64,000 nt of DNA from positions 3,534,001-3,598,000 of the forward strand of contig NZ_CP052766.1 of NCBI RefSeq assembly GCF_002499975.2, given 5' to 3'. This DNA is from Alteromonas pelagimontana (GTDB taxonomy: Bacteria > Pseudomonadota > Gammaproteobacteria > Enterobacterales > Alteromonadaceae). A program made the translations under genes and the position numbers. This document shows, piece by piece, positions 60,167 to 64,000 of this stretch. The notes beneath the pieces were generated by a model that saw only the letters and a list, made by a program, of their open reading frames with translations, was not told where the DNA came from and did not search any database. Each line of letters begins with the position of its first letter. Position 1 is the stretch's first letter.

Positions 60167-61108
60167 ATGGCTCATCAAGAAGAGTGTCCTAAGTGTCCGC
60201 CACCAGGTCTGCCTGCGTGGATGGCAACATTTGCCGATCTTATGTCGCTGTTAATGTGCTTTTTTGTATTGTTACTTTCATTTTCAGAAATGGATGTCCT
60301 CAAGTTCAAACAAATTGCCGGCTCCATGAAATTTGCTTTTGGTGTGCAAAACAAGATAGAAGTTAAAGATATACCGAAAGGGACCAGTGTTATTGCTATG
60401 GAATTTCGGCCAGGGCGTCCCGATCCTTCGCCTATCGAAACTATTCAGCAGCAGACGATTGAAATGACACAGCCCACACTGGAGTTTCAGGCTGGCGATG
60501 AAGAATCTGCGGGTGGGCGTCAAAAGCAGCATGGGGAAGAACGAGGAGGACAAGCTCAACAAACTGCGACTGAACAGAGTTCCTCGGCACAGGAAAGTGC
60601 GGACCAGGAGCAAGTAAGTGAAATGATGAAAAAAGTGGCTCAACAACTTCAGAAGGAACTGTTAGATGGATCGATTGAAATGGAGTCTCTGGGTCAACAA
60701 CTTACAATTCGGATCCGCGAAAATGGTTCTTTCTCTGCTGGGTCAGCCTTTCTGCAACCGCAGTTCGCACCTATTTTAAGAAAAATTGGTACCTTGCTGG
60801 CAGATATACCTGGTGAGATTGAAATTTCCGGCCACAGCGACGGTCAGCAGATATCAAATGAGCTATATCGTTCAAACTGGGATTTATCGGCGCAGCGAGC
60901 TGTGGCTGTTGCAGAAGAGCTGCGAATGGCACCGGGATTCGACGAATCCCGTATGACAGTCGTGGGTAAGGCGAGCACTGAGCCCCTTATAGAAGATGCC
61001 GCTACTGCGGAAGATCTAGCCACGAATCGACGGGTAGAAATTAATATTAATCAGGGAAAGCCCATGCTATCCAAGCCAATCTCGGTGATTGAAAATAAGC
61101 AAGAATAA
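60167..61108 (+). CDS. pomB: Sodium-driven flagellar motor stator protein PomB
   Basis: A 313-residue MotB-family subunit. One helix near 20-42 (FADLMSLLMCFFVLLLSF) carries the ion-binding aspartate D24; a low-complexity Gln/Ser/Glu linker (about 105-145) follows; the C-terminal OmpA-like peptidoglycan-binding domain has ISGHSDGQQI and TNRRVEI. It anchors the stator to the cell wall. Confidence 0.95.
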   Translation: MAHQEECPKCPPPGLPAWMATFADLMSLLMCFFVLLLSFSEMDVLKFKQIAGSMKFAFGVQNKIEVKDIPKGTSVIAMEFRPGRPDPSPIETIQQQTIEMTQPTLEFQAGDEESAGGRQKQHGEERGGQAQQTATEQSSSAQESADQEQVSEMMKKVAQQLQKELLDGSIEMESLGQQLTIRIRENGSFSAGSAFLQPQFAPILRKIGTLLADIPGEIEISGHSDGQQISNELYRSNWDLSAQRAVAVAEELRMAPGFDESRMTVVGKASTEPLIEDAATAEDLATNRRVEININQGKPMLSKPISVIENKQE

Positions 61109-61199
61109 CCCACGCGATCTTTGTGGGAATTCTGTGCAGCAGTGATACTAATACTTTGTGATATGGATATAAGGTATCACTGGCGAAACATGGGGCGTC

Positions 61200-61545
61200 T
61201 GCACTGAGCTTAGAATAATAGCGATGCCACACTGTTAACAACACCGAAAAAATTTCGTTTAAAGACACGCCGGAACATTTCTGGAGCAAAGGCATCAATA
61301 TCCACATATTCGTGTGACCCTGCGTTAGCTCGGCAATGTCAAAAACGCTTCTTTTGCAGAGCACGTTGAGTTGCCTTCCCATCAGATACATCAAAATGAC
61401 AACTTTCTATGTTCTCGAGCTCGGCAAGTTGATTAAGTACTCCGATTTCTGCCGCAGGCAGTAACGTAATAACCTTTCTTAGCGGCTATTGCGCCAGAAC
61501 TTTGCCAATACCCGATGTGACCACTGTTACTTATAGGGTCGTCAT
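61200..61545 (-). pseudogene. Decayed short-chain dehydrogenase/reductase (SDR) gene
   Basis: Reading leftward from ATG 61545: MTTL, stop, then TSGIGKVLAQ, the cofactor-binding TGxxxGIG segment, then after a frame change AIAAKKGYYVTACGRNRS, then back to VLNQLAELENIESCHFDV, a stop after KKRF, then NAGSHEYVDIDAFAPEMF and NFFGVVNSVASLL. The order of the NAG motif and the following helix is that of an SDR enzyme. At least two in-frame stops and two frameshifts break it, and the catalytic YxxxK half is missing. The start overlaps the end of the next remnant by ATGA. Confidence 0.8.
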
Positions 61546-61980
61546 GTCTTTATCTTCCTCTTGATCTTTTTGGCTATCCCACCTGGAGCAGGAATATGTT
61601 CATATATCATTTCACCGAAACCATAGTAATCGCGTAAGAATTCCATTTTCATTAGCTTTTAGCTGGCTGATGCCGTACGGCTACACGGTAATGTCAGATG
61701 CACCATTCAAGTAACGACGTCAGTGGAATTATGGGATTGCCATAGCACTAAATAACGATCCGGATAAAAAATGGCAGGTGCCAAGGTTTACAGTTGTTTT
61801 GTGAGTTATTTCTTGACGCAAGCAAGCTTTTGGGCAGTGTAAATAGGGTCTATAAACTCTACATCGTTAGTGTAAATAGTTCCCAGCATTTCACTGTTCA
61901 AACTGCCAATGTCTTGAAAGGCCGTAAAAAACTGGCTAATTATCGACAAAGGGAAAGGCCATAATCGTTAGTAGATCCAT
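61542..61980 (-). pseudogene. Decayed NTF2/SnoaL-like gene
   Basis: Reading leftward: QFFTAFQDIGSLNSEML, GTIYTNDVEFIDPIYT, a stop, then (shifted) RYLNGASDITV and PYGISQLKANENGI, then (shifted) FLRDYYGFGEMIYEHIPAP and GGIAKKIKRKIKT with stop TGA at 61544-61542. These segments are in the order of an NTF2/SnoaL-like protein that accompanies SDR and flavin genes near sigma/ChrR pairs in related bacteria. Several stops and frame changes mark it as dead. The stop codon still overlaps the SDR start. Confidence 0.75.
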
Positions 61981-62108
61981 TACCGCCAGCTACAGGAGAA
62001 AGATCATTGCTGGCCCCCCAAAACCTTTGGGTTCGCGGGTTTAACAGCGATCCGAAAAGAGTGTCGTAGCGTAGACAGCCTAAAAGCTATTTTTAAAAAA
62101 ATTAATCA

Positions 62109-62684
62109 ATGATGCAAAGCCAAATACCCTTGTTTCCTCTGTCTGCACACTTGCTGCCTGGAGGGCGTACATCCTTAAGAATCTTTGAGCCCCGGTACGT
62201 GCGGATGGTAAAGGAGGCGTGTGCATCAAACTCTGGTTTTGTTCTTTGTATGCTTAATGCGCGAGGGAACAAAGAGAACAACGAACATATCTTTCCCATA
62301 GGAACTTACGCTGAGGTCATTGATTTTGATGTTCTTGATGATGGTCTTCTTGGCATCAAAGTTGCTGGTCTATTTGGTGTAGAGGTGAGTGATATTAAAA
62401 CTGAAGCCGATGGCCTTAGGATTGGTAGTTGCCAAACCATTGAACCGTGGCGTTGCAATATCACCCCTGAAGAAATTTCACCTATGGACGAACGCTTAAA
62501 GGAGATTTTCGACCGTTATCAGGAGTTAAGCTCATTGTATGAAAAACCCGCATTCGAAGATCCTTTGTGGGTAGTTCATCGCTGGTTAGAGTTGCTTCCG
62601 GTAGACGCCAGACAGAAACAGTATTTTCTTGAGCAGAAAGATTGTCACAAACTGCTTAACTATTTGTCAGCGCTGGTTCAGTGA
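62109..62684 (+). CDS. LON-substrate-binding-domain protein
   Basis: A 191-residue protein with an N-terminal Lon-type PUA-like domain: QIPLFPLSAHLLPGGR, LRIFEPRYVRMVKEA and GFVLCMLN are the family strands. There is no ATPase or protease domain. Function is unknown; it lies between the eroded NTF2/SDR remnants and the sigma/ChrR pair. ATG 62109 or 62112. Confidence 0.88.
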   Translation: MMQSQIPLFPLSAHLLPGGRTSLRIFEPRYVRMVKEACASNSGFVLCMLNARGNKENNEHIFPIGTYAEVIDFDVLDDGLLGIKVAGLFGVEVSDIKTEADGLRIGSCQTIEPWRCNITPEEISPMDERLKEIFDRYQELSSLYEKPAFEDPLWVVHRWLELLPVDARQKQYFLEQKDCHKLLNYLSALVQ

Positions 62685-62807: not shown

Positions 62808-63419
62808 ATGTTAGTTGGAATTCCATTGGAACAAAGTAACAGTGTAGTTAAGCCTAAAGATTGCGCTGGAGAGATGTCAGATTATATCGTGTCGGTAGCA
62901 GAAAGCCGTTGCAAAAAGTCTTTCGCCAGAGTCTTTAGCTATTTCGCTCCACGGCTACGGTCCTACGCGCTTAAGCAAATGGGTAACGAAGCGCTCGCTA
63001 TGGAGTTAGTTCAGGATACAATGTCCAATGTCTGGCAGAAAGCCCATCTTTTCAATGCTGAGAAAGGTAGCCCGTCTACGTGGATTTTTACGATAGCTAG
63101 GAACATCCGTTTCGATATGCTTCGTAAATTACAAAATCGCAAGGAAGACGTCTGTTCAGATGACCTTTGGCCGGTTCTTTGCGAGCAAACTGCAGACGCG
63201 AATGAAGCGCCTTTAGATGAACAAATTACTCTGGAGCAAATCGGATTCATGTTTGAATCATTGCCAGTGAAGCAGAAAGCCGTCATTGAAGCCATTTATA
63301 TTGACGGTAAATCTCAGCAGGAAGTGGCCGATGAACTTAGTATTCCTTTAGGAACTGTAAAATCAAGAACGCGCCTTGCGCTACAGAGATTAAAAGGCAT
63401 GCTTCAGGATCATGATTAA
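62808..63419 (+). CDS. ECF sigma factor of the RpoE/ChrR type
   Basis: A 203-residue ECF sigma factor. Region 2 includes LVQDTMSNVWQKAHLF and STWIFTIARNIRFDMLRK; region 4 has LPVKQKAVIEAIYIDG and VADELSIPLGTVKSRTRLAL. The adjacent ChrR gene, overlapping by eight bases, marks it as the ECF11-type sigma that answers singlet oxygen and related oxidants. It differs from the envelope-stress RpoE at 30.3 kb. Confidence 0.93.
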   Translation: MLVGIPLEQSNSVVKPKDCAGEMSDYIVSVAESRCKKSFARVFSYFAPRLRSYALKQMGNEALAMELVQDTMSNVWQKAHLFNAEKGSPSTWIFTIARNIRFDMLRKLQNRKEDVCSDDLWPVLCEQTADANEAPLDEQITLEQIGFMFESLPVKQKAVIEAIYIDGKSQQEVADELSIPLGTVKSRTRLALQRLKGMLQDHD

Positions 63420-64000
63420 GTTCCATCCCGGCCCTGAGCAATTGACGAGGTTTGTTGAGGGCACGCTGCTTCCTGTAGAAAGTATAATGGTGTCGGCCCA
63501 CTGCGACATGTGCAGGAAATGCAGGGATGATATAGATAAGGAAACGGCTCGAATAGCGGAGAACGAGTTTCTCTTCGCCGACGAAGGAAACGTCCCTTCT
63601 TTAGAAACAATGTTGGCACAGATCACGGAGTTGCCCGCATCCACGCAGTTAGTAGTCTCAACCTCGCAAGTTCATCCTACTGCTATTGAATTAGATGGAA
63701 AGTCGTTTCCATTGCCAGCTACTTTACATCGATTTATCTCCAAAACAGGAAACTGGTCATCGCTAGTGGGTAGGCTGTGGCAGGCTCCTGTAAGTTTCGG
63801 TCATTCAGGAGTCGCAAACTTCATCTATATGGGAAAGGGAGGAGGTGTTCCTGAGCACACTCATCAGGGAATTGAATACTCATTGGTAATTAGTGGCGAA
63901 TTCAGCGATAACCTCAACACCTACAGGAAAGGTGACTTTCTTTGCTTCCGGGACGATCAAACTCATGCTCCGCATTCTCAAGTCGATGAAGGTTGCCTGA
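63412..64000 (+). CDS. chrR: ChrR-family anti-sigma factor (3' end outside window)
   Basis: The frame from ATG 63412 is open to the window end (196 codons). The N-terminal zinc-binding anti-sigma domain has H5, H30, C34 and C37 (MIKFHP and SAHCDMCRKC). The C-terminal part is a cupin with HTHQGIEYSLVISGEF and DDQTHAPHS, giving the His/Glu metal site. ChrR holds the sigma factor inactive until singlet oxygen or organic peroxides appear. The start overlaps the sigma gene by eight bases. Confidence 0.92.
   Translation, partial: MIKFHPGPEQLTRFVEGTLLPVESIMVSAHCDMCRKCRDDIDKETARIAENEFLFADEGNVPSLETMLAQITELPASTQLVVSTSQVHPTAIELDGKSFPLPATLHRFISKTGNWSSLVGRLWQAPVSFGHSGVANFIYMGKGGGVPEHTHQGIEYSLVISGEFSDNLNTYRKGDFLCFRDDQTHAPHSQVDEGCL

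Follow-up and report, generated by a model that had tools for sequence, protein, structure and literature searches.

Remains of a probable sigma/ChrR-controlled operon beside an intact sigma/ChrR pair in Alteromonas pelagimontana

Between pomB and a gene for a LON substrate-binding-domain protein, the chromosome of Alteromonas pelagimontana carries a kilobase (61109-62108) in which the reading of open frames revealed no convincing intact gene, followed by the genes of an ECF sigma factor and its anti-sigma factor ChrR. Positions are those of the window, that is, the whole analysed stretch of 64,000 nucleotides (positions 3,534,001 to 3,598,000 of contig NZ_CP052766.1). The question raised by this locus is what the apparently empty kilobase once encoded, and what the loss of that content means for the regulators that stayed. 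The answer reached here is that the kilobase very probably holds the remains of a sigma/ChrR-controlled operon of five genes, in the order NTF2-like protein, SDR enzyme, FAD oxidoreductase, DUF1365 protein and cyclopropane-fatty-acid synthase-type (CFA) methyltransferase, of which the last three (the trio) were deleted and the rest decayed, with the switch, LON and at least one other predicted target remaining in place. The features on which this reading is based are as follows.

60167..61108, plus strand: pomB, an intact open reading frame, 82-86% identical to pomB of four clade members
61109..61132, no strand: deletion junction, approximate, placed from the size of the pomB-LON gap and the lack of a FAD, DUF1365 or CFA match in the kilobase
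61133..61545, minus strand: SDR pseudogene, frame broken (blastn, tblastn in frame -3, alignment)
61542..61545, minus strand: ATGA overlap of the NTF2 stop and the SDR start, read in the sequence and shared by relatives
61542..61949, minus strand: NTF2-like (DUF2358/SnoaL) pseudogene (tblastn, alignment with indel list, Pfam domains of an intact relative)
61981..62005, minus strand: ECF-type promoter GATCT-N16-GGTA toward the dead operon (36-region alignment, genome pattern match)
62049..62073, plus strand: ECF-type promoter GATCC-N16-CGTA of the LON gene (36-region alignment, genome pattern match)
62109..62684, plus strand: LON substrate-binding-domain gene, an intact open reading frame (PF02190, 70.5 bits)
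62808..63419, plus strand: ECF sigma factor of the ChrR type, an intact open reading frame (NF008890, 350.7 bits against a cut-off of 284)
63412..64000, running to 64131 past the window, plus strand: ChrR zinc anti-sigma factor (TIGR02451, 147.9 bits against a cut-off of 124.5)

Two gene fossils next to pomB

A preliminary description had read the minus strand of the kilobase as ordered, frame-broken pieces of an NTF2/SnoaL-like protein and an SDR enzyme, and comparison with relatives revealed that these pieces are real. In blastn searches of 61109-62108 against the relatives' loci, the SDR/NTF2 stretch was matched in 35 loci at 57.6-65.7% identity, with a best E value of 2.7e-35, and some of these loci also gave a separate match to an NTF2 stretch, at E values as low as 4.7e-6. 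As controls, 200 dinucleotide-shuffled queries and the query in reverse (201 in all) were searched, and every one stayed above an E value of 1e-3, the best reaching 0.002. The frame-shift-aware search of the minus strand that the description had proposed likewise returned significant similarity to both families. By tblastn (E < 1e-3 at an effective size of 5 Mb), 34 of 35 NTF2 proteins of relatives matched in frame -1, best at 61572-61949, and all 34 SDR proteins, the stop-containing SDR of locus L061 being excluded, matched in frame -3, best at 61216-61515. Proteins of the FAD, DUF1365 and CFA families (35 of each) found no match in the kilobase, even at E <= 1. The 4-base ATGA overlap claimed for 61542-61545 is also present, and at 61545-61542 it lines up with the overlap between NTF2 stop and SDR start in the relatives. 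The orthology of the fragments is a matter of direct observation.

The same holds for their decay. Among the 72 NTF2 columns that are invariant in 35 relatives, A. pelagimontana keeps 58, the others being lost to 11 substitutions and three gaps, and in the SDR gene it keeps 77 of 86 invariant columns from the ATG at 61545 to 61220 and 13 of 30 in the tail from 61220 to 61133; similarity to SDR is clear as far as ~61216-61220 and poor in the tail, which reaches ~61133. When the relatives were left out in turn, the lowest retention was 72 of 75 columns for NTF2 and 86 of 90 for SDR. The column of the relatives' NTF2 ATG reads TTG here, the NTF2 tblastn match contains four stops, and both genes are interrupted along their length by frame-shifting indels. 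Both fragments are thus pseudogenes, frame-broken homologues that lie in the syntenic place and have lost invariant positions. SDR mismatches at codon positions 1, 2 and 3 were 0.29, 0.30 and 0.64 between A. pelagimontana and locus L031, and 0.18, 0.15 and 0.61 between L031 and L032; since the distant functional pair L031-L048 (0.29, 0.27 and 0.68) matches the first comparison at positions 1 and 2, the codon-position test does not by itself establish decay. Taken as a whole, the pattern fits evolution under constraint followed by recent loss.

At the junction itself (61109..61132, with approximate ends), the deletion has taken the 3′ part of SDR and the genes for the FAD oxidoreductase, DUF1365 and CFA. 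It had been stated earlier that the leftward arm has decayed and is truncated at pomB. The decay is borne out; as pomB is intact, the truncation is to be understood as a deletion end just past the pomB stop codon, and not as damage to pomB.

The operon of the relatives and the fate of the missing genes

All 35 congeneric genomes of an initial set have an orthologue of the sigma factor, at up to 97% identity, the closest named relatives by this protein being Alteromonas indica and Salinimonas species. In 33 of these 35 relatives the pomB-LON interval measures 4,604-5,580 bp, against 1,004 bp here. In L031 this interval is a minus-strand NTF2-SDR-FAD-DUF1365-CFA operon, whose products carry, in that order, an NTF2-like domain (PF10184, with a weak SnoaL_2 match), an SDR domain (PF00106), a FAD amine oxidase domain (PF01593), DUF1365 (PF07103) and a CFA-type methyltransferase domain (PF02353). 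The Alteromonas/Salinimonas operon, as exemplified by L031, shares with the window its position, its orientation, the NTF2-SDR overlap and the divergent promoter motifs; however, all five genes are open in L031, whereas two fragments are left in the window. The gene order that had been predicted beside LON, sigma and ChrR was observed in 35 of 35 congeneric loci, all five genes being present in each and stop-free except for the SDR gene of L061 (120-contig relative G016), which has one in-frame stop. In L033 and L034, pomA, pomB and ispA were not found within the fetched ~10 kb upstream of sigma, and the operon lies beside LON, which is a rearrangement adjoining the operon.

In a set of 80 named Alteromonadaceae loci, which overlaps the 35-locus congeneric set, FAD, DUF1365 and CFA genes occurred together in all 80, and NTF2 was unmatched in seven, three of which also lacked an SDR match. 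The fossils of A. pelagimontana are therefore the less conserved genes of the operon, and it is the conserved core that was deleted. In three Paraglaciecola loci (L142, L147 and L150) the FAD-DUF1365-CFA core is kept and an NTF2/SDR match beside sigma is absent, a loss opposite to that of the window.

The preliminary description had suggested that part of the output of the stress response may have been lost or relocated. The genome is a single contig of 4.31 Mb, rated 100% complete, and it gave no match to the FAD protein, which was matched in 58 of 59 genus genomes, that is, in all but this one. In another genus genome (G073, C5 343344-344605) the FAD gene matches in two overlapping pieces in two frames, which may reflect an assembly error or a frameshift in that lineage. 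The genome-wide search for DUF1365 and CFA genes that had been recommended gave a similar picture. DUF1365 was over the family cut-off in 58 of 59 genus genomes and absent from that of A. pelagimontana; a search of 14 control genomes gave one match, in Caulobacter, and the matches in G003 and G027 contain one TAA inside the matched stretch, the locus reading of both genes being stop-free. The operon-type CFA was likewise found in 58 of the 59. The sole CFA gene of A. pelagimontana is 39% identical to the operon CFA and passes the E. coli Cfa equivalog NF008686 with 587.7 bits against a cut-off of 400; it lies at L151 7777-8961, with neighbours that look by eye like an amidohydrolase gene and rho. 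The best 120 of 8000 protein matches to the operon CFA are named SAM-dependent methyltransferase or CFA synthase, names that carry no proven product. Relocation is therefore rejected, because FAD and DUF1365 are absent from the one-contig genome and the only CFA gene is of the other type; loss, the other half of the suggestion, stands. A plasmid outside the one-contig assembly could carry the genes.

Cyclopropane and furan fatty acids are different products. This difference bears on an alternative in which the E. coli-type Cfa took over the membrane role of the operon and made it dispensable. In favour of such a replacement, A. pelagimontana has an intact gene of this type, and second genes of comparable match strength were found in only four of 59 genus genomes, its own included; however, the other three holders also keep the operon CFA, the genome scan described below placed no GATCY-N16-SGTA site near the cfa gene, and the two products are not equivalent. 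Replacement is thus considered unlikely.

State of the sigma/ChrR pair and its predicted targets

It had been claimed that the sigma pair and the LON gene survive, and their intact frames and family scores agree with this: both members of the pair exceed the cut-offs of their families (TIGR02451 and NF008890), the sigma factor is 95-97% identical to those of six clade members, and the full frame of ChrR was seen in locus L069. The ChrR protein displays the zinc-ligand patterns H, H-x3-C-x2-C of the anti-sigma domain and H-x-H-x3-E, H of the cupin domain, with ligands as given in the available part of PMC6852236 and the pattern read in an alignment with six relatives rather than with the Rhodobacter protein. 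Its gene (63412-64131) encodes a C-terminal extension of ~15 residues that is absent from the six aligned relatives. In trees of sigma, ChrR and LON, the terminal branch of A. pelagimontana falls inside the span covered by the six clade members, that of ChrR being long (0.461) and still within 0.093-0.551; these trees do not include L061 and L064, and the pom trees lack L033 and L034. The branch lengths accordingly give no support to relaxed evolution of any of the three genes. A seemingly broken sigma gene in a relative (G006, L060) was also dismissed, since the in-frame TGA is the fourth codon from the end of a sigma factor of the length found in A. pelagimontana.

Alignment of the NTF2-LON region of 36 loci revealed, among the blocks listed, two divergent motifs whose letters are shared by 95% or more of the rows, TGATC...GTA toward NTF2 and GATCC...CGTA toward LON. 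They resemble the TGATCC...CGTA promoters of Shewanella RpoE2 (PMC4336711) and the Vibrio cholerae motif TGATC-N16-18-CGTAW given in the available part of PMC5241685. Upstream of the sigma gene of A. pelagimontana, GATC and GTA stand at an unusual spacing, which is variable among relatives. A genome scan for GATCY-N16-SGTA found 72 sites, of which 70 were followed (the two in the window being left out), and five of these 70 were intergenic and upstream of an open frame. The reversed pattern gave 25 sites against 72, which is an unfair control because the reversed motif contains CTAG, a tetranucleotide that is rare in bacterial genomes.

Two of the five sites, L164 and L185, were compared in 12 relatives, the others being L204, L207 and L215. 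In L164 (C1 532418-534042) the site precedes a dkgB-type aldo/keto reductase gene (NF008377, 367.3 bits against 327), and GATCY-N16-CGTA was observed upstream of this gene in A. pelagimontana and of its orthologue in 11 of 12 relatives, the twelfth having an N15 spacer; GATC...GTA-type motifs also precede LON and NTF2 in the alignment of 36 loci. Neither of the two paralogues that were read carries the motif. The dkgB-type reductase is therefore predicted to belong to the sigma/ChrR regulon of the group, as judged from its upstream sequence. As the LON and dkgB-type motifs are kept, the sigma factor has at least two predicted targets left. L185 (C1 1570338-1571962) holds an apparent membrane-protein gene with GATCC-N16-CGTA upstream; in all nine relatives that have this gene, GATC-N16-18-GTA lies ~90-160 bases upstream, GATCY being found in none of the nine and CGTA only in L245 and L246.

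The recent appearance of the operon loss and the off-spacing promoter of sigma itself would be consistent with a sigma/ChrR pair that is itself on its way out, its decay still pending. However, the intact frames and ligand pattern, the close identity of sigma to its six counterparts, terminal branches within the clade range, an intact LON promoter and the remaining dkgB-type target all argue against this, and such an impending loss appears quite unlikely.

The promoter that faces the dead operon keeps all eight invariant columns, which might suggest that it is selected for a new output, for instance a small RNA or an antisense transcript across pomB. However, A. pelagimontana also keeps 135 of 158 invariant coding columns (85%), and at this background retention eight of eight are expected with a chance of ~0.28; no selection is thus claimed, and the survival of this promoter was rejected as evidence for it. 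Moreover, in the alignment of relatives no invariant column was found outside the promoter between 62004 and 61960, so that no conserved leader was seen, and reuse of the promoter is very unlikely. An operon still intact in the living strain and hidden by assembly or sequencing error is barely credible, for although a single and perhaps incomplete assembly of the species was seen, such an error would have to produce a net deletion of ~3.6-4.6 kb together with many indels and substitutions in one kilobase between intact flanking genes, and to leave FAD and DUF1365 without a copy anywhere in a one-contig genome.

The lost trio and the signal for ChrR

What the deleted genes may have done is suggested by Rhodobacter sphaeroides, in which, as here, an ECF sigma factor (sigmaE) is paired with a ChrR anti-sigma factor, and in which a FAD protein, a DUF1365 protein and a SAM-dependent fatty-acyl methylase are tied to the pair, as in the relatives. 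The available part of PMC7380195 describes the makers of furan fatty acids in this organism as UfaM, a SAM-dependent fatty-acyl methylase (ufaM, RSP2144), UfaO, a DUF1365 protein, and UfaD, an NAD/FAD-binding protein related to phytoene desaturases (ufaD/ufaO, RSP1091 and RSP1090). According to the accessible text of PMC6852236, these genes are sigma targets, and ChrR turnover under singlet oxygen also depends on them; mutants without them are impaired in raising sigmaE activity in response to singlet oxygen, activation by t-BOOH can be separated genetically, and the loop of furan lipid and ChrR was proposed to be general. In the relatives of A. pelagimontana, a FAD amine-oxidase/desaturase-like protein, a DUF1365 protein and a CFA-type methylase are encoded together, as the domains of L031 and the 80 named loci indicate. 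The lost trio thus resembles UfaD-UfaO-UfaM, a likeness drawn from domains, gene order and the published description rather than from alignment with the Rhodobacter proteins. Whereas Rhodobacter keeps its furan genes and needs them for ChrR turnover, as far as the available parts of PMC6852236 and PMC7380195 describe, A. pelagimontana has lost the trio and retains the switch; with the FAD and DUF1365 members absent, its assembled genome lacks this putative furan-fatty-acid gene set.

In Shewanella oneidensis, RpoE2-ChrR acts, as would be expected here, on TGATCC...CGTA promoters, with a LON-domain gene and a cfa operon among its targets (PMC4336711, available part). The same text describes several psychrophilic and deep-sea Shewanella in which regulator and regulon are absent together, in contrast to the window species, in which only the lipid arm is gone.

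The events may be outlined as follows. A deletion in a single species of the Alteromonas group probably took out the three distal genes together with part of SDR, and point changes and indels eroded NTF2 and what was left of SDR. The sigma factor probably drives the promoters of the dead operon, LON and the dkgB-type gene, and the trio of the relatives presumably makes furan fatty acids. If so, loss of the trio would have removed the lipid-derived input that ChrR turnover under singlet oxygen needs in Rhodobacter, and the switch would persist on account of the targets left to it and could now respond to different signals, organic hydroperoxides being one example. The best reading is a recent loss of the lipid arm in a single lineage, leaving a naturally uncoupled ChrR switch, which by analogy with Rhodobacter is predicted to operate without furan-lipid input. 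The furan-gene likeness of the trio, the remaining predicted sigma targets and the surviving promoter of the dead operon are points that go beyond the first reading of this locus.

DUF1365 accompanies ChrR in all 35 congeners and in all nine of the 24 order-level genomes in which ChrR exceeded its cut-off, being present in four of the 15 without it. Among the genomes checked for both, the window species is therefore the sole exception to 44 others that pair the two. Of the 295 genomes sampled from the order, 129 have ChrR over the cut-off, and as 113 ChrR-bearing ones lie outside the DUF1365 count, there may be further uncoupled cases beyond the genus. A literature search combining ChrR, ECF sigma and Alteromonas found no publication.

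A recent loss of the lipid genes with the regulator kept amounts to a natural knock-out for asking whether the switch needs the lipid signal. It is tentatively proposed, as something possible rather than probable, that A. pelagimontana has a working ChrR switch without the furan arm, released independently of lipid and turned to carbonyl and peroxide defence through LON and the dkgB-type reductase. If this is true, the natural uncoupling would demonstrate a route of ChrR release that does not depend on lipid.
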